In this document: in pieces, positions 45,328-53,227 of the stretch | Layout: the number at the start of each line of letters is the position of its first letter | Position numbering within the stretch: the stretch's first letter is position 1 | Assembly: GCA_011088105.1 (NCBI GenBank) | Contig: JAALKI010000013.1 | Coordinates: 3,265 to 67,264 of the forward strand | Direction of reading: 5' to 3' | Length of the DNA stretch: 64,000 nt | Origin: Nitrospirota bacterium | Lineage (GTDB): Bacteria > Nitrospirota > Nitrospiria > Nitrospirales > UBA8639 | The notes under the pieces: model-generated | Databases searched by the model: none | What the model was told of the DNA's origin: nothing | The model's input: only the letters and a program-made list of their open reading frames with translations | Program-made: the position numbers and the translations under genes

Positions 45328-46965
45328 TTAACGCACGGAGGAGGACGAATTCGCAGGTTTGGTCAGGGGTGTGGGGTCAGAGGGTTTTCTTGATCGGAGT
45401 ATCTGTTCGAGCGTTAACAGCGCATCGCGGCCGGAGTTGCGTTCAATGCCTTGACTCAACGAATTGTCGGCATAGGTATGTCCCTGTTGTTGTGTGGCGC
45501 TTTGTTGACTCAAGCTGCCAGACCAGGGTCTGGGGTCATGACTGCCATGCTTCCGGTTCCAGGCTGCCAAGCAGGCCTTAGCAATGATCTTATTAAAGGG
45601 GGCAGGGTTGTAGAGCATTTTTTTAACGTTCCATGGGGTTAGACTCAAGGGGTTATATCCGCCAGAGAGATATCCTTCGGAGAGAAGGCGTTCCTCCAAG
45701 TCCGTATTGGGTTGAATGCCTAAGAAAAACATGAGAGGAAAGACACGATCTTCGCCAAGAATCGAGGCAACAACTTTGTATGATTCAATACTTTGTAAGA
45801 GGCTTTCCTCGGTTTCCTCAGGTGAGTTCAGCGAATAATTCAGAATAACTCTTCCCGTGAACCCTGCATCGCGCAAATGTCGGCAGCCTTCATAGACATG
45901 TTCCAGCTTAAATCCCATATGCAGGCTATTGAGGACACGTTGTGATCCTGCAGTGATGGCGACTTCTAAATCCCCCACTCCTGATTGAACCATGAGCTTG
46001 GCTAAGTCAGCGGTAATGAGTGAGGTCCGAATGTATCCAGACCATTCAATCTCGAGTTTCTCTCGAACAATGCGTTCGAGGATTTCCGTACATTGCGGGT
46101 AGGCGTCTTTCCCGGTGATAAACTGAGCATCGGTAAACCAAAAGCGTCTGGCGCCCCACTGATGGTAGTACTGAGAAATATCGTGCACGACATGTTCAGC
46201 TGGTCTATATCGAACACGCTTGCCTTCTATGTATGGATACAGGCAAAACGCACAATCGTACGGGCAGCCCCGTTTACTTTGCACGCCAATACATTCTCCC
46301 ACATATTCTTTGTATTGAGGAAAGATTGAGGTTAAGTAGGGAAGGTCAACGGTCAAGGCGTCTAGCAAGGCAGGCGTATGTTTGGTACCTTTGGTCACCG
46401 TGCCTTGTTCTCGAATAATAAACCGCTCCTCGGTCAAGGGCTCGTCATTTAACACCTTGAGAATGGCATCCTCGCCTTCCCCTAGGATGCCAATTGTCCC
46501 TTCAGGTACTTTGTGAATTAATTGATCGGCAAATGCGGTGAATGCGCCACCGCCGATCATGATGCGTGTGGATGGATAGTTGTTTCGAATCAACCACGGA
46601 TACGACAAGTTCGTACGAATGTCTTGGTAGTAACGGTAGAGATTTTGTAATCCTTGAAATGAGGCCATCACGCGTTTTAGTGGGTTACTGGCGTAGTAAA
46701 AATTGAAGGCATGTTCCAAGGAGGCATCCCCTTCGTGGGGAGAAAAAATTTGAATGTCTCGCCAGGAAAAGCAGACAAGCTCCGGCTTGAACGCCTGCAT
46801 GGTGTCTCGGAGGGCTTGAGGCCGTTTCGATTTGGGATATAACGAGAGGTCTAAGATCTGTTGGCGAACATCTGGTCGTCGTCGGTGAATAAAGTCTGCG
46901 AGATAGGTGATGCCCGTTGGATAGACTTTTTTACATGGCAAAAAGATGTAGAGAACGGAATCCAT
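45328..46965 (-). CDS. B12-binding-domain radical SAM enzyme of unknown substrate
   Basis: A 545-residue protein. The N-terminal 200 residues form a cobalamin-binding-like fold (PTGITYLADFI, IMIGGGAFTAFAD, GEGEDAILKVL). The radical SAM motif is CPYDCAFCLYP at about residue 235, in the context GVQSKRGCPYDC typical of BchE-like enzymes. The last 80 residues are low-complexity Ser/Gln/Pro. The His of the B12-on motif DxHxxG is not evident, so cobalamin may bind base-off without it or not at all. It lies upstream of, and divergent from, the aminoethyl head-group cluster, with two genes between; a link is speculative. Confidence 0.82.
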   Translation of the reverse strand: MDSVLYIFLPCKKVYPTGITYLADFIHRRRPDVRQQILDLSLYPKSKRPQALRDTMQAFKPELVCFSWRDIQIFSPHEGDASLEHAFNFYYASNPLKRVMASFQGLQNLYRYYQDIRTNLSYPWLIRNNYPSTRIMIGGGAFTAFADQLIHKVPEGTIGILGEGEDAILKVLNDEPLTEERFIIREQGTVTKGTKHTPALLDALTVDLPYLTSIFPQYKEYVGECIGVQSKRGCPYDCAFCLYPYIEGKRVRYRPAEHVVHDISQYYHQWGARRFWFTDAQFITGKDAYPQCTEILERIVREKLEIEWSGYIRTSLITADLAKLMVQSGVGDLEVAITAGSQRVLNSLHMGFKLEHVYEGCRHLRDAGFTGRVILNYSLNSPEETEESLLQSIESYKVVASILGEDRVFPLMFFLGIQPNTDLEERLLSEGYLSGGYNPLSLTPWNVKKMLYNPAPFNKIIAKACLAAWNRKHGSHDPRPWSGSLSQQSATQQQGHTYADNSLSQGIERNSGRDALLTLEQILRSRKPSDPTPLTKPANSSSSVR

Positions 46966-46969
46966 GGAA

Positions 46970-47734
46970 TTATTTTACGGCGATGTGGATGGCCACGATT
47001 CCGCCTGTGAGGTTTCGATACTGCACGTGCTGAAAGCCAGCGTGCGAAAGCAGTTCAGCCAGGCGTTGCTGGTCGGGAAATGCCCGAATAGAGGCTGGGA
47101 GATATCGATAGACATCAGTATGGTCTTGGGCCACTTTGGTGCCAATCCATGGAAGAAGGTGAAATGAATACCAGTCATAAAGTGCGCGTAGCCCTTTGGA
47201 AAGAGGACGTGAAAACTCGAGGCAGACAAATCGTCCTCCTGGTTTCAGTACTCGAAAAATTTCGCAAAAGACCTTTGGGATGTCGCCGACATTCCGAATA
47301 CAAAAACCAGCGGTGACGGCATCAAAGACATTATCTTGAAACGTGAGTTGCTCTGCGTTCCCTTGGAAACAGGAAATCTGAGGGGTCAGTCCCAATTTAG
47401 TGAGTTTTCGCAACCCTTCTTTTAACATCGCGCCATTGAGGTCCATCGCGGCGACCGAACCCTGGTTGTTCATACGCTCGTGAAGAAGCATGGCCAAATC
47501 AGCCGTGCCTGCCCCAATATCTAAGGCGTGTCCAGTTTCCATTGGCGGAATGGCTTTGATGGCGAGACGTTTCCACCGGTGGTGTAGTCCGAAACTGAGT
47601 AGTGAATTATTCAGGTCGTAGGATTGGGCAATGGCCGTAAACATCCGTTGCACGGCTTGCTCTTTGGCTATTCCCGACCATTGAGAAACGATCTGGCCGG
47701 TAGGAGGGGAAGGAATTTTTTCCATAGCTGACAT
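46970..47734 (-). CDS. ubiE: Quinone-biosynthesis methyltransferase (UbiE/MenG)
   Basis: A 254-residue SAM-dependent C-methyltransferase that converts demethylmenaquinol to menaquinol (or the ubiquinone analogue). MFTAIAQSYDLNNSLLSFG and WKRLAI, then motif I ALDIGAGTADLA and FDAVTAGFCIRNV, are family hallmarks. I placed the start at 47734 to avoid overlap with queF; no clear ribosome site is seen. The polyprenyl synthase at 53235 acts earlier in the same pathway. Confidence 0.92.
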   Translation of the reverse strand: MSAMEKIPSPPTGQIVSQWSGIAKEQAVQRMFTAIAQSYDLNNSLLSFGLHHRWKRLAIKAIPPMETGHALDIGAGTADLAMLLHERMNNQGSVAAMDLNGAMLKEGLRKLTKLGLTPQISCFQGNAEQLTFQDNVFDAVTAGFCIRNVGDIPKVFCEIFRVLKPGGRFVCLEFSRPLSKGLRALYDWYSFHLLPWIGTKVAQDHTDVYRYLPASIRAFPDQQRLAELLSHAGFQHVQYRNLTGGIVAIHIAVK

Positions 47735-47751
47735 TATGTTTGACCGAAGTT

Positions 47752-48159
47752 CTATAGAAATTTGGCTTGGATGGTACTGTGGAGTCCGCCACGGGCGGTG
47801 AATTCGCCAGTGACCGTGGCCCATTGGGGTCGGCAGGCTTTGACGACGTCTTGGAGAATTCGGTTCACCGCATTCTCATAGAAAATGCCGAGATTTCGGT
47901 AGGCATGGATATATAGTTTCAGGGATTTTAACTCGAGGCAAGCCTGATCAGGCATATACTGGATCCGAATGGTGCCAAAATCGGGAAGACCGGTTTTGGG
48001 GCAGATTGCGGTATATTCTGGAACGTCAATTGTAATGTCATACCCTGTGTATTGATTCGGCCATGTCTCAATCTTCGGCAGTGTTGCCGTCAATCCACTT
48101 TTCGCATGAGCTTTGGTATATCGACGTGCAGAGCCGGAGCTATTCTTTAAGGGAGGCAT
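47752..48159 (-). CDS. queF: NADPH-dependent preQ0 reductase
   Basis: A 135-residue type I QueF that reduces 7-cyano-7-deazaguanine to preQ1 in queuosine synthesis. The nucleophilic Cys is in YTAICPKTGLPDFG, and the NADPH motif is ELKSLKLYIHAYRN followed by GIFYE. Its length is normal for the single-domain form. Other queuosine genes are not in the window. It is divergent from the decarboxylase cluster. Confidence 0.95.
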   Translation of the reverse strand: MPPLKNSSGSARRYTKAHAKSGLTATLPKIETWPNQYTGYDITIDVPEYTAICPKTGLPDFGTIRIQYMPDQACLELKSLKLYIHAYRNLGIFYENAVNRILQDVVKACRPQWATVTGEFTARGGLHSTIQAKFL

Positions 48160-48248: not shown

Positions 48249-48277
48249 TTGAGAAAGGTGGTTCCCTTGGTTATAAT
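48249..48277 (+). promoter_or_regulatory. Near-consensus sigma-70 promoter of the decarboxylase-aminotransferase cluster
   Basis: The -35 box TTGAGA (48249-48254) and the perfect -10 box TATAAT (48272-48277) are 17 bases apart. Transcription would start near 48284, leaving a leader of about 95 bases before the first gene. Confidence 0.75.
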
Positions 48278-48381
48278 GGCACGCTTTCCGGCCGGCTGAT
48301 TCCTGATCGACCATTGCATTTCCGTTTTTCGTATCTGTTGGCCCCTACTCCAACGTTCTTGAGGAGAAGCTTTCTGCTGTG

Positions 48382-48879
48382 ATGATTGAGAGCGACGATT
48401 TTGTCAAGGCTTTGCAGGATATCGGGTTTGATTTCTTCACCGGTGTGCCAGACACGATTCTCGGAGGTATCATTGAGGTATTGGGGGAACGGCGTCTCTA
48501 TACGCCGGCTGTTCGGGAAGACGAGGCGGTGGCGATGGCGGCCGGCGCTTTTTTCGGAGGGAAAATCCCTGCAGTTCTCATGCAAAACTCAGGATTAGGC
48601 AATGCGTTGAATGTGCTCATGTCGCTGAATTTGATTTATCAGATACCCTCTCTCCTGCTTGTCTCGTGGCGTGGCTTTGAGGGGAAAGATGCTCCTGAAC
48701 ATTTGGTCATGGGGCAGACAATGCCCCAACTGCTGGAGACTATTCGCATTCCTCATCGAACATTGTCTCAAGAAACAATCATTGAAGATCTCAAATGGGC
48801 GGCTCAAACCTTTATGGCTCAACGTGTGCCGGTTGCTTTGTTATTGAAAAAAGGTATTGTGAAAGCTGTTCAACCTTGA
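48382..48879 (+). CDS. Sulfopyruvate/phosphonopyruvate decarboxylase, alpha-type subunit
   Basis: A 165-residue protein equal to the N-terminal (pyrimidine-binding) half of thiamine-diphosphate decarboxylases. FFTGVPDTILGG, REDEAVAMAAGAFFGGK (the Glu that activates ThDP), MQNSGLGNALNVL and LVSWRGFEGKDAPEH match ComD and the N-terminal half of phosphonopyruvate decarboxylase. It needs the partner subunit encoded at 49032. A GTG one codon upstream is also possible. Sequence alone does not decide between sulfopyruvate and phosphonopyruvate. The PhnW-like aminotransferase two genes on fits either product (sulfo- or phosphonoacetaldehyde). Confidence 0.85.
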   Translation: MIESDDFVKALQDIGFDFFTGVPDTILGGIIEVLGERRLYTPAVREDEAVAMAAGAFFGGKIPAVLMQNSGLGNALNVLMSLNLIYQIPSLLLVSWRGFEGKDAPEHLVMGQTMPQLLETIRIPHRTLSQETIIEDLKWAAQTFMAQRVPVALLLKKGIVKAVQP

Positions 48880-48883
48880 AGGC

Positions 48884-49003
48884 CTATTGAAAAAGACTGC
48901 TAGCGGTGTTCTCATTGCTTCTGAAGGCTCAACGTACTGGCCCGTACGCCTCACCTTCCTCGCAGCTTGCGGCCTTGCTGGACGATCTTTTTGACCAGTC
49001 CTT
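48884..49003. repeat. Imperfect palindromic repeat (REP/MITE-like)
   Basis: The left arm begins ATTGAAAAAGACTGC and the right arm ends GACGATCTTTTTGACCAG, which is close to its reverse complement. A central CGTACTGGCCCGTACG forms the tip. Arms of about 50 bases are roughly half identical. I recall very similar elements scattered in Nitrospira genomes. It sits in the 152-base gap between the two decarboxylase subunit genes and would fold into a long hairpin in their shared transcript. Confidence 0.7.
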
Positions 49004-49031
49004 ATGAAAAAATGATGGAGTTGACTTAACG

Positions 49032-49613
49032 ATGCAACCCGAAGAAGGTGTCATGCAAAGCCGTGCTCAGGCCATGAAGGCCTTACTGGAACTGATGTCG
49101 GATCAGGCGTTGATCATCTGTAATGGCTTTCCATCCCGAGAGGCCCACAAACTCTGTGAACGCGAGCAAAATTTTTACATGATTGGGTCTATGGGGGTTG
49201 CGGCTTCTATTGGGCTCGGCTTAGCACTGGCTCAGCCCCAGAAAACCGTAGTGGTTTTTGATGGTGATGGTAATGTGTTGATGGGCATGGGAACGTTAGC
49301 GACCATTGGTGCGTTACAGCCCCGTAATTTGATTCATGTGGTATTTGACAACGAGGTCTATGGAACGACGGGGAATCAACCCACCTATTCCCGTGTTGTG
49401 AAGCTGGACCACATTGCTAAATCTGCTGGCTATGTGAATGTCGAACGAGTGTGGGAACGGGAAGACATCATCTATGAATTTAAAGAGATGTTGGGAAACA
49501 CGGGGCCTAGCTTTCTGTTGATTAAGGTGAATGAGCAAATCGAGGATGCTGATCGCGTCTCAATTGAACCAGCAGATATGACGAAACGATTCAAAACGGC
49601 TGTCACTCCATAG
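49032..49613 (+). CDS. Sulfopyruvate/phosphonopyruvate decarboxylase, beta-type subunit
   Basis: A 193-residue protein equal to the C-terminal half of the same enzyme. It holds the ThDP diphosphate/Mg site GDGNVLMGMGTLATIG with the downstream N in FDNEVYGTTGNQPTY, and the family signature MIGSMGVAASIGLGLAL. A second ATG at 49053 has a better ribosome site (GAAGGTG) and may be the true start. In methanogens the split enzyme ComDE makes sulfoacetaldehyde; single-chain Ppd makes phosphonoacetaldehyde. Confidence 0.87.
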   Translation: MQPEEGVMQSRAQAMKALLELMSDQALIICNGFPSREAHKLCEREQNFYMIGSMGVAASIGLGLALAQPQKTVVVFDGDGNVLMGMGTLATIGALQPRNLIHVVFDNEVYGTTGNQPTYSRVVKLDHIAKSAGYVNVERVWEREDIIYEFKEMLGNTGPSFLLIKVNEQIEDADRVSIEPADMTKRFKTAVTP

Positions 49614-49639
49614 GCAAGAAACAGTTCTGAAAGGATGTC

Positions 49640-50731
49640 ATGATTCTTCTTAATCCCGGTCCAGTGAATGTGTCCGATCGCGTGCGTCAGGTACTTTTGG
49701 AGCCTGATGTTTGTCATCGTGAGTCCGAATGTGCGGAATTGATTGGTCATATTCGTACGAAACTACTACAGGCTTTTGTCCCAGGAGCCGAGGACGATTA
49801 TACGGCTATTGTGCTGACCGGATCGGGGACGGCGGCGGTTGAGGCGTCGGTGTTGTCCTCGGTGCCATTAGCCAAGCGTATCCTTGTGATCAACAATGGA
49901 GTCTATGGCCAACGATTATCGGCTATTGCAGGAACCCATCGGCTTGGGGTGCCTGAACTCAAGTTTGAGTGGGGGACATGTCCTGATCCAGAAAAGGTCA
50001 AACTGGCGTTGCAACAACATCCTGAAGTGGCGACGGTGGCCATGGTCCATCACGAAACGACCGTTGGTCTCATTAATCCTGTGGAAGAAATTGCAAAGAT
50101 TGTCGATGATGCAGGGCGCATTTTCGTGGTTGATGCCGTGAGTGGATTAGGTGGAGACCCTCTTGATATTGCGGGGACGCACATGTATGTAGTGGCGGGT
50201 ACAGCAGGAAAATGTATCCAAGGGTTTCCGGGTGTCTCATTTGCTCTTGTGCGGAAGGGGTTCATGGATCGGGCGCTGAAATATCCCAAACGCTCATGTT
50301 ACCTGAATTTGGCCAACTACTATGAAGCACAAGAAAAAGGGAGCATCCCCTTTACCCCAGCTATCCAACTCTATCGGGCCTTTCATGAAGCATTGGACGA
50401 GCTCTTGGAAGAAGGCGTTGCGAAGCGGATTGAACGATATGGTCGTATGGCTCATCTGCTTCGTCAACGAATGGGTGGGCTGGGCATTAACGCTGTCCTT
50501 GCGCCCGAACGGCAATCAAATTCTTTAACGGCTTGGTATCTGCCCGAGCATGTTCCCTATCAGGCCCTTCATGACGCTCTCAAGGCAAAAGGGTATGTCA
50601 TTTATGCTGGTCAGGGCCACCTTGAATCAAAAATTTTCAGGGTTGCCAATATGGGGGCGTTGACTGAACACGATTTTGAAGGATTCGTGTCGGCACTGGA
50701 AGCGATTCTTCCAAAGGTTATTGCTCGGTAA
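49640..50731 (+). CDS. PhnW-like class V aminotransferase
   Basis: A 363-residue PLP enzyme. LLNPGPVNVSDRVRQ, LTGSGTAAVEA, FVVDAVSGLGGDPLDI and the lysine-bearing VAGTAGKCIQGFPGVSF all match 2-aminoethylphosphonate:pyruvate aminotransferase and its relatives. It starts 26 bases after the beta subunit and would interconvert the aldehyde made by the decarboxylase with its amine: 2-aminoethylphosphonate if the substrate is phosphonoacetaldehyde, taurine if sulfoacetaldehyde. No phosphonatase (phnX) is present, which argues for synthesis rather than breakdown. Confidence 0.87.
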   Translation: MILLNPGPVNVSDRVRQVLLEPDVCHRESECAELIGHIRTKLLQAFVPGAEDDYTAIVLTGSGTAAVEASVLSSVPLAKRILVINNGVYGQRLSAIAGTHRLGVPELKFEWGTCPDPEKVKLALQQHPEVATVAMVHHETTVGLINPVEEIAKIVDDAGRIFVVDAVSGLGGDPLDIAGTHMYVVAGTAGKCIQGFPGVSFALVRKGFMDRALKYPKRSCYLNLANYYEAQEKGSIPFTPAIQLYRAFHEALDELLEEGVAKRIERYGRMAHLLRQRMGGLGINAVLAPERQSNSLTAWYLPEHVPYQALHDALKAKGYVIYAGQGHLESKIFRVANMGALTEHDFEGFVSALEAILPKVIAR

Positions 50732-50784
50732 TAGTCTAAGGTTCCCTCCATTAGTCAGTGAGAATCACCCGTTGAGAATCTTCA

Positions 50785-52245
50785 ATGGATCAAACCCTCG
50801 ATAAACCGGCAATCGAAACAATCGATACCGCTATTCTTCTCACTTCTGCCGGTGTCTTTGATGCTGAAGGACGGACTTCGTTAGAAAAAGGGCCCCTTAC
50901 CCGAGTGGGAGGCGTGACCTTGTTTGAACGGACACTGATGACGCTCCAACGTGGGGGCATCGCACAAGTGTTAATATTAGTAGGAGAAGAAGAACAGGCT
51001 CTTCGCCACTTGCTCAAGCAAGATGCGCGCATTCATATGACCATTCGATGGTTGCCTATTCGGGAATTTCCCCCGCTTCAACCTCAAACATGGAAAACCG
51101 TAGCCACGGGAATCAGCGGGTCCTGTATCGTGCTCGGTTGCCAAATGGTTTGTACGCCTTTACTGATTCGCCGTCTTCAAGAGAAAGGCCAAGGTGGGCG
51201 AGCGGTGGTCATGGTTGGAAAAACTTGTGCTGGAAGGGGTGTGCCCAATCCTGGTGTGTTCATCCCACCTCGTGGGATTTCGCAAAGGCTGTCTCAGCGA
51301 GTGGTCTTTCATGACTATAAAGGGATTTCCTCATCTGAGTCATGCCCACAGCCTGATTCCATGCCTGCAGCTGACTTGGTTGTTTTGCCGGCTCGTCTAT
51401 TAGGGATTTCTGGCTCCTGGAATATTCCCTCTGTCAGCCCTCTTCGATTGGCCCTCGAGCAAGCGGCTGCTGAAGAGACGATTCATGCCATTCTGGTCGA
51501 GCCCTCTGAGTATGTGGATGCGCGTGGGGTCTGCGGTCTGCAATCGGCTGAGTGTGCCTTGCTTCAGTCTCTCCAAACAGTGGAAGGTGGGCTGAATGGG
51601 TGGGTTGACCGGTATTTCAATAGAAAAGTTTCTGGTTGTCTGACGCGACTGTTTATCCGTTTCCGGTTCACGCCGAATATGATTACCATGCTTTCTCTTA
51701 TGATTGGGTTGGGCAGTGCGGGATGTTTCGGATGGGGGTCGTATCAAATGGGGCTGCTTGGTGCGTTGCTCTTTCAGTTGTCTGTGATCGTTGACTGTTG
51801 TGATGGTGAGGTTGCCCGCATAACCTTCAGCGAATCTTCTTTCGGCCAGGAGTTGGATATTATGGCTGATAATATCGTTCATATCGCAATTTTTGCGGGG
51901 ATTGCCTGGGGAAGTTTTGTGCAAGGGGTTTGGAGCGCCAGCCTGCTTCCTCTGGTTTTTGGAGGGATTGCGATGGCAGCCAATGGTCTTTCGTTTTGGG
52001 GTGTCCAACGTGTTCGCTTTCTGCAAGCAAAGCCTTTGCGATGGAGCCGTATACCAGAATGGGCTCAGACTCGGTTAGAGTGGTTACTGAGTAAAGTGGC
52101 CAATCGTGACTTTTCTATAGTGGTGATGGTCTGTGCGATTTTTTCGCTTCTTCCCTGGTTTCTGTTCCTCAGCGCTATTGGGGCAAGTCTGTTTGCCGTG
52201 ATCCTGCATTGGACTCTTCGCCGCGCACGCCTTGCCAGTGTTTAG
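50785..52245 (+). CDS. Nucleotidyltransferase-like domain fused to CDP-alcohol phosphotransferase
   Basis: A 486-residue two-domain membrane protein. Residues 1-260 resemble a sugar/polyol-phosphate nucleotidyltransferase, but the usual LAAGxGxR loop is degenerate (LLTSAGVFDAEGR). Residues 290-486 form a CDP-alcohol phosphatidyltransferase with the complete metal site DCCDGEVAR and GQELDIMAD, plus several membrane helices. The architecture is that of the bifunctional IPCT-DIPPS of hyperthermophiles. Here it follows the decarboxylase and aminotransferase genes, so it may activate and transfer an aminoethyl head group or make a polar lipid. Confidence 0.82.
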   Translation: MDQTLDKPAIETIDTAILLTSAGVFDAEGRTSLEKGPLTRVGGVTLFERTLMTLQRGGIAQVLILVGEEEQALRHLLKQDARIHMTIRWLPIREFPPLQPQTWKTVATGISGSCIVLGCQMVCTPLLIRRLQEKGQGGRAVVMVGKTCAGRGVPNPGVFIPPRGISQRLSQRVVFHDYKGISSSESCPQPDSMPAADLVVLPARLLGISGSWNIPSVSPLRLALEQAAAEETIHAILVEPSEYVDARGVCGLQSAECALLQSLQTVEGGLNGWVDRYFNRKVSGCLTRLFIRFRFTPNMITMLSLMIGLGSAGCFGWGSYQMGLLGALLFQLSVIVDCCDGEVARITFSESSFGQELDIMADNIVHIAIFAGIAWGSFVQGVWSASLLPLVFGGIAMAANGLSFWGVQRVRFLQAKPLRWSRIPEWAQTRLEWLLSKVANRDFSIVVMVCAIFSLLPWFLFLSAIGASLFAVILHWTLRRARLASV

Positions 52246-53227
52246 ATTCATTTTCCTTATCATTGGGGTGGGTGCGCTTGCCGGTATTCTTTGGCATGTT
52301 GGCCTCACTCCACTCATTCACACCTTTCATCAATTTGGCCTGTTGGCATTGCTGCTGATTTTTGTCCCGATGGTAGGAGTCTATCTTCTTGAAGCCTATG
52401 GGTGGCAGCTAACGTTGGGAAACCATGTTGAAAAAGTTGGGTTTTGGCGACTGTTTGCTATTCGAATGGTAGGCGAAGTGATTAATGTGACAACTCCGAC
52501 TGGCTACATGGGTGGCGAACCCATGAAGGCCTATCTCTTGCGGCGTTATGATGTTCGTATGGTTGATGGCATGGCTTCCGTGGTGACGGCCAAAACCATC
52601 ATGACCTTAGCGCAAATCATGTTTATTGTCTTAGGTTTGGGTCTGATGTTTGGGATCCTTGGGATGACAGATCAGAATCTCTTTGCCGCATTGATTGGGG
52701 TGGGGACCCTACTTTTTGGTCTCGGTCTCTTTATGATGGTACAACGCTATGGACTGGCTGTTGGTCTGTTAACATGCTTCCGAAGGCTCAAGCTGTCTAT
52801 TTCCTATTTAGAAAAACGGGAATCCCAACTCATTGAGTTGGATCACACTATTCGACAGTTTTATGCCGAGCGGCGCACAACATTTCTTTTCGCATTGAGC
52901 GTGTACTTCCTTGGATGGTTGATGGAAAGCTTGGAAGTCTACGCCATTCTCTATTTTCTCGGTGTGGATGTGGATGTGCTTTCTTCGGTCTCTATTGCGG
53001 CATTGGCGGTGCTGATTAAAGGTGGAACATTTTTTATCCCAGGGAGCCTTGGTGCACAAGAAGGGGGCTATCTCTTGATGCTCCTGGGGTTTGGCTATGA
53101 TGAAGTGACGGGAGTCGCCTTTGCTCTGGTTCGAAGAATGCGGGAAGTGATCTGGATTATGATTGGATTAGTCTTTCTGGCAATATTCAAAGGGCAGAAT
53201 TCTTCGGATGTTTCCCCGTTGGCATGA
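52232..53227 (+). CDS. Flippase-like integral membrane protein (LPG synthase TM / UPF0104 family)
   Basis: A 331-residue protein with about eight membrane segments and family landmarks TPTGYMGGEPMKAYLLRR and GGTFFIPGSLGAQEGGY. The family includes MprF's N-terminal flippase-like part, AglD and HpnL, which handle lipids or lipid-linked sugars. It starts with TTG at 52232 (or GTG at 52238), overlapping the previous gene by 14 (or 8) bases, so the two are translationally coupled. It may move the lipid made by that enzyme across the membrane. Confidence 0.85.
   Translation: MPVFRFIFLIIGVGALAGILWHVGLTPLIHTFHQFGLLALLLIFVPMVGVYLLEAYGWQLTLGNHVEKVGFWRLFAIRMVGEVINVTTPTGYMGGEPMKAYLLRRYDVRMVDGMASVVTAKTIMTLAQIMFIVLGLGLMFGILGMTDQNLFAALIGVGTLLFGLGLFMMVQRYGLAVGLLTCFRRLKLSISYLEKRESQLIELDHTIRQFYAERRTTFLFALSVYFLGWLMESLEVYAILYFLGVDVDVLSSVSIAALAVLIKGGTFFIPGSLGAQEGGYLLMLLGFGYDEVTGVAFALVRRMREVIWIMIGLVFLAIFKGQNSSDVSPLA

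Follow-up and report, generated by a model that had tools for sequence, protein, structure and literature searches.

What does the five-gene cluster described here build, and onto what is its product transferred? The cluster lies in a 64-kb window (the whole stretch of DNA analysed), which is part of a 2.6-Mb Nitrospirota genome of 70 contigs that is 97.6% complete. It encodes the two halves of a split thiamine diphosphate (ThDP)-dependent decarboxylase (ppdA and ppdB), a PhnW-like aminotransferase (aept), a protein that joins a nucleotidyltransferase-like domain to a CDP-alcohol phosphotransferase (CDP-AP; hereafter, the fusion), and a flippase-like membrane protein. A first-pass annotation proposed that these genes make an aminoethylphosphonate or aminoethylsulfonate head group and attach it to a lipid; all five open reading frames (ORFs) are present as it placed them, and family searches back every assignment. 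We predict, with a probability of roughly 0.66, that these genes encode the lower steps of a phosphonyl-tailoring route of the predicted phosphonolipid type, the top step of which is encoded on another contig.

The top step would be catalyzed by phosphoenolpyruvate (PEP) mutase, which the first-pass annotation listed as missing. This is true of the window but not of the genome: a genome-wide search located, on contig C32, a PEP mutase that scores 384.6 bits versus a cut-off of 319.55, as the annotation had allowed when it suggested a pepM gene elsewhere. The 537-residue protein is a fusion of PepM to a nucleoside triphosphate (NTP) transferase, carries the diagnostic EDKXXXXXNS motif as EDKLFPKTNS, and has a Mytilus PEP mutase as its best structural relative. 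Approximately 60% of PEP mutases are fused, chiefly to nucleotidyltransferases (PMC6697681). Directly upstream of pepM is a separate gene for a PntC/LicC-like nucleotidyltransferase (L002:15062-15976), the joint best Protein Data Bank (PDB) matches of which are Treponema denticola PntC, a 2-aminoethylphosphonate (AEP) cytidylyltransferase, and LicC.

The enzyme families, their motifs, the conserved gene order and a route to CMP-AEP that is complete on paper are established from sequence and genomic context. In the proposed route, PepM would convert PEP to phosphonopyruvate, the split enzyme PpdA+PpdB would decarboxylate this to phosphonoacetaldehyde, and the PhnW-like aminotransferase, acting in the biosynthetic direction, would yield AEP. 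AEP and CTP would then be joined as CMP-AEP by the PntC-like protein encoded beside pepM, by the NTP transferase domain fused to PepM, or by both. The six-helix CDP-AP domain of the fusion would transfer the AEP group from CMP-AEP to an alcohol in the membrane, in the simplest case diacylglycerol, to form a carbon–phosphorus (C–P) analogue of phosphatidylethanolamine (PE), and the HpnL-like protein would move the product across the membrane. Which substrates the enzymes use, that the acceptor is a lipid and that the product is flipped are inferences.

Both halves of the decarboxylase match the phosphonopyruvate decarboxylase (Ppd) and sulfopyruvate decarboxylase families, in keeping with the ComDE/Ppd-like enzyme first proposed, with all scores below the cut-offs (Table 1). 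Ppd is the best family of ppdA, which also shares 40% identity with the Mycetohabitans Ppd that is linked to pepM, and ppdB matches the sulfopyruvate decarboxylase beta family first and Ppd second. Because the pair is the sole strong Ppd-like match in the genome, it is the likely natural partner of the PEP mutase. Because the scores lie below the Ppd model cut-off, these genes are at risk of being annotated as sulfopyruvate decarboxylase. The sulfonate variant left open by the first-pass annotation would run from sulfopyruvate through sulfoacetaldehyde to taurine, followed by lipid attachment, and the resemblance of the split enzyme to ComDE and the slightly higher ppdB score as a sulfopyruvate decarboxylase agree with it. 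It is nonetheless very improbable and was rejected: a search of the genome for the phosphosulfolactate synthase ComA gave no match (cysteate-forming genes were not searched), pepM is present in the genome and stands beside the operon in 22 relatives, and the partner enzymes are of the PntC and PhnW types. The phosphonate reading is well supported, and the sulfonate reading is not supported.

The aminotransferase identified as PhnW-like is a class V transaminase whose best PDB matches are AEP-pyruvate transaminases (PhnW); its score against TIGR03301 (PhnW-AepZ), its best family, is just below the cut-off of 360.8 bits. Transaminases of this type also initiate AEP degradation, and the cluster could for that reason serve degradation or salvage instead of synthesis. 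We rejected this reading as highly unlikely, as the first-pass annotation had argued from the lack of a phosphonatase: the best phosphonatase match in the genome reaches 34.6 bits versus a cut-off of 220, PhnJ of the C–P lyase was not found in the genome, and PEP mutase and the cytidylyltransferase are biosynthetic enzymes whose linkage to the operon is conserved. An aminoethylphosphonate route in the direction of synthesis, as originally suggested, agrees with the pepM, PntC-like and PhnW-type parts and with their conserved order.

The architecture of the fusion was correctly recognized at first, but activation of the head group by its N-terminal domain was not borne out. A confident AlphaFold2 model (pLDDT 83, pTM 0.79) places a six-helix CDP-AP after an NTP-transferase fold. 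The CDP-AP motif, followed by an invariant N-x-V-H, is intact in all 40 fusion homologues compared. Because the NTP-transferase signature GXGXR...PK is absent from all 40 and kept in 29 of 29 PntC-like proteins, an activating role for the N-terminal domain is very improbable, and the domain was ruled out as the AEP activator; it may be a structural or regulatory remnant. Since it lacks the catalytic signature, other enzymes would have to activate the head group, and this role is predicted to fall to the PntC-like protein, the PepM-fused domain, or both. The genome contains both the PhnW-like aminotransferase and a cytidylyltransferase with an intact GXGXR...PK signature, each with predicted AEP specificity. 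In one Nitrospirales family (G051, G054), the phosphotransferase occurs without the N-terminal NTP-transferase-like domain.

Comparison with relatives supports the grouping of these genes. Named relatives were recovered by an alignment-based scan with the fusion protein (a single-sequence scan of the named genomes gave none), and those carrying the fusion are Nitrospirales and Nitrospira metagenome-assembled genomes and Candidatus Nitrospira defluvii (FP929003), in which the operon lies near 697 kb. The order ppdA-ppdB-aept-pntC-fusion-flippase is found in 65 of the 67 named Nitrospirales loci with enough flank, so that the five-gene order is conserved with a pntC-like gene as an added sixth member between the aminotransferase and fusion genes. 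Two outcomes that the first-pass annotation had named as refuting it, the lack of a precursor pathway in the genome and an unconserved gene order, were thus looked for, and neither was encountered. The six-gene arrangement also occurs in G262, which belongs to another family of the same class. As judged from coordinates, with examples read, pepM lies no more than approximately 8 kb from the fusion gene in 22 genomes with the same order. In a hand count of good-quality genomes, with one ambiguous genome set aside, 113 had both the fusion and pepM, 6 had neither, 3 had the fusion alone and 1 had pepM alone (Fisher test, p = 1.4e-7, with no correction for kinship). The gene set appears to be near-universal in Nitrospira relatives, being kept by nearly all of them.

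Several observations weigh against our assignment. The pairing of the fusion with pepM fails in four genomes of fair to good quality, both decarboxylase halves score under the Ppd cut-off with ppdB higher as a sulfopyruvate decarboxylase, and pepM and the pntC-like gene lie outside the operon in the source genome. In addition, the six-helix CDP-APs with solved structures take polar acceptors (PMC4634129), and the diacylglycerol-using CEPT1 has ten helices (PMC10156783); lipid attachment is for these reasons plausible rather than established. The fusion model shows the six-helix-type domain alone, without the extra C-terminal helices of CEPT1, a class II CDP-AP. The fusion is thus not classed as a CEPT1-type enzyme, yet it may act like one.

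The same CMP-AEP route could therefore end at an acceptor other than a glycerolipid. Candidates are hopanoids, glycans that are polyprenyl-linked or at the cell surface, and soluble polyols, the last as in the synthesis of di-inositol phosphate. The fusion is nearest to IPCT-DIPPS and AF2299 in both fold and sequence: Foldseek matches it to IPCT-DIPPS (4MND) and AF2299 across almost its entire length, and AF2299, for which the polar donor CDP-glycerol has been reported (PMC4634129), is the closest solved relative by sequence. A hopanoid acceptor would fit the squalene-hopene cyclase encoded in the genome and the HpnL-like character of the membrane protein. A glycan would fit the glycosyltransferase and polysaccharide-export genes that follow the operon in Ca. 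N. defluvii, but glycan genes beside the operon are not conserved in the family to which the window belongs. A soluble product suits the coupled flippase-like gene less well than a lipid does, and clusters with the same functions in other bacteria have been interpreted as phosphonolipid clusters (PMC5987646). We consider a non-glycerolipid acceptor unlikely and favor a lipid, because of the coupled flippase-like gene and because similar clusters elsewhere are read in this way.

The membrane protein itself belongs to PF03706. Its best NCBIfam match, TIGR03476 (HpnL), is below the cut-off of 195.65 bits, its match to TIGR00374 is above the cut-off, and a homologue in a Mycetohabitans phosphonate cluster scores 328.6 bits on TIGR03476. 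By family resemblance it is a candidate flippase. Its gene lies 3' of the fusion gene, as first described, and is probably translationally coupled to it because the two share a 14-nt overlap. In several Nitrospira, the flippase-like gene is present in three tandem copies after the fusion (L092:1241-4456; L132, L136, L148, L151, L156). We also considered whether an AEP lipid could substitute for missing PE. This was rejected: the source genome encodes phosphatidylserine decarboxylase, as do nearly all relatives, also those that lack the cluster, and the product would therefore add to PE, not replace it.

The placement of pepM differs among relatives. The source-genome pepM and pntC-like genes (L002:13452-15976) are 80% and 69% identical, respectively, to an adjacent pair in G027 (L213, G027:C118), where a gene for a single-chain Ppd comes next. 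With its counterparts in other family members, the source-genome pepM shares only approximately 54% identity. Because the identity to G027 exceeds that to the family, a simple move is no more likely than a joint gain of pepM and pntC accompanied by deletion of the pntC copy in the operon, and the identities suggest horizontal transfer of the pair. Judging from G009 and G010 (loci L192 and L214), the pathway tolerates dispersal of its genes: in G009 the operon is reduced to pntC, fusion and flippase-like genes (L192:8409-10079) with pepM approximately 40 kb away, and in G010 ppdA-ppdB-aept-pntC is far from the fusion and flippase-like genes (L214:7026-10023).

Other variations were observed. 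In some relatives, pepM occurs at a second locus together with a gene for a single-chain Ppd (L196:9024-12770; L198:9298-12177), followed in L196 by an aldo/keto reductase gene, possibly for a hydroxyethylphosphonate branch. In two other Nitrospirales families, a Rieske ferredoxin-like gene lies between pntC and the phosphotransferase gene (L036:9686-9997; L042:7572-8872), and one of these families also has a small squalene-hopene-cyclase-like protein encoded there, hinting at head-group or lipid oxidation. Elsewhere in the window, a B12-binding radical S-adenosylmethionine protein (45328-46965) resembles the cyanobacterial slr0320 family most closely, at 445 bits and under the cut-off, and the adjacent gene (46970-47824) matches the methyl-plastoquinone-type methyltransferase MpqE above the cut-off.

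The features of the cluster are listed in Table 1. The near-consensus promoter noted at first is where it was described; promoter-like sites in the region are no more numerous than in shuffled sequence, and the site is backed by its match quality and position only. The start codon chosen for ppdA (ATG 48382) agrees with relatives. The decarboxylase genes are separated by a median of 24 bp in relatives, and in the window by a repeat of approximately 120 bp, the seven genomic matches of which are 76 to 100% identical. The pntC-like sixth gene of relatives is absent from this operon, leaving only a short gap.

Table 1. Features of the cluster, numbered from the first base of the window.
Feature	Position	Strand	Evidence or remark
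Sigma-70-like promoter, TTGAGA-17-TATAAT	48249..48277	+	11/12 consensus bases; ~100 bp 5' of ppdA
ppdA, N-terminal (PYR-type) half of split phosphonopyruvate decarboxylase	48382..48879	+	TIGR03297 133 bits, PF02776; ORF opens at GTG 48379
Interspersed repeat, not a functional part	48885..49010	.	7 matches in genome; related copies in other Nitrospirales
ppdB, ThDP-binding half of split decarboxylase	49032..49613	+	TIGR03846 187.5 bits, TIGR03297 171.1 bits, PF02775; GDG...N ThDP motif
aept, PhnW-like AEP aminotransferase	49640..50731	+	TIGR03301 340.5 bits; best PDB matches are AEP-pyruvate transaminases
53-bp gap, site of pntC-like gene in relatives	50732..50784	.	Median aept-fusion distance in relatives 786 bp
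Fusion: degenerate NTP-transferase domain (~1-265) and six-helix CDP-AP (~270-486)	50785..52245	+	PF01066; AlphaFold2 model; Foldseek
HpnL-like membrane protein (LPG_synthase_TM), candidate flippase	52232..53227	+	PF03706, TIGR03476 152.4 bits, TIGR00374 above cut-off

Nitrospira and its relatives are leading nitrite oxidizers of soil, water works and sewage plants. We tentatively suggest, at somewhat short of even odds, that nearly all Nitrospirales have a C–P bonded AEP lipid among the core constituents of their membranes, which would be made by a two-subunit Ppd and a six-helix CDP-AP that, unlike the structurally known members, would use a CMP-phosphonate donor and a lipid acceptor, with a dead NTP-transferase domain kept for structure or regulation. 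If the lipid is made, Nitrospirales would be an unrecognized source of phosphonates, the lipid could serve as a marker, and its C–P head group should withstand phospholipases that cleave the head-group phosphate ester. Almost nothing is known of how bacterial surface phosphonates are assembled (PMC6697681), and the cluster would then offer an enzyme set for studying this process. Its interest lies chiefly in its near-universality in a globally important order and in the fact that the prediction is testable in existing cultures. A literature search turned up no account of phosphonate lipids in Nitrospira, nor of a ppdA-ppdB-aept-fusion-flippase operon there; most subscription journals were outside its reach, and novelty is thus unproven.

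Parts of the cluster resemble several known systems. IPCT-DIPPS (4MND) and AF2299 (4O6M) share the two-domain layout of the fusion, an N-terminal NTP-transferase fold and a six-helix CDP-AP, but the fusion lacks GXGXR...PK and occurs in a phosphonate rather than an inositol context; the active N-terminal cytidylyltransferase of IPCT-DIPPS has no counterpart in any of the 40 fusions. ComDE has the same two-subunit ThDP architecture as PpdA+PpdB, whereas ppdA and ppdB occur in a genome without ComA and are linked in relatives to pepM, aept and a pntC-like gene. HpnL and MprF-type flippase domains belong to the same PF03706 fold family as the membrane protein, and the Mycetohabitans homologue exceeds the HpnL cut-off, in contrast to the window protein, for which transport is a prediction. 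The Pnt pathway of T. denticola and Atopobium rimae (PMC6697681) follows the same logic of PepM, Ppd, AEP aminotransferase and AEP cytidylyltransferase, with the PepM-NTP transferase fusion and the PntC match as further likenesses; by their description, the clusters of these two species contain LicD-like transferases or glycosyltransferases, in place of which Nitrospirales have a CDP-AP.

The closest likeness is to clusters of lichen Nostoc with a Burkholderia homologue, published as phosphonolipid clusters with the same functions (PMC5987646), and to a gene row on plasmid pBRH01 of Mycetohabitans rhizoxinica that encodes a CDP-AP, a 2-oxoglutarate (2OG) oxygenase, an HpnL-type membrane protein, a phosphocholine cytidylyltransferase family protein, aepX, aepY and AEPT (RBRH_RS14475-14505). 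All share with Nitrospirales pepM, ppd, an AEP aminotransferase, a LicC/PntC-like NTP transferase, a CDP-AP and an HpnL-type protein, every shared part being homologous. One feature of such clusters, a CDP-AP with an intact motif linked to ppd and aept (65 of 67 loci) and to pepM (22 genomes), is found in Nitrospirales as well. The Nitrospirales cluster differs in that two genes encode the split Ppd, a degenerate NTP-transferase domain is joined to the phosphotransferase, the operon is without a 2OG-Fe(II) oxygenase, and pepM frequently lies at another genomic site. Judged by its gene content, the cluster is a variant of already predicted phosphonolipid clusters.

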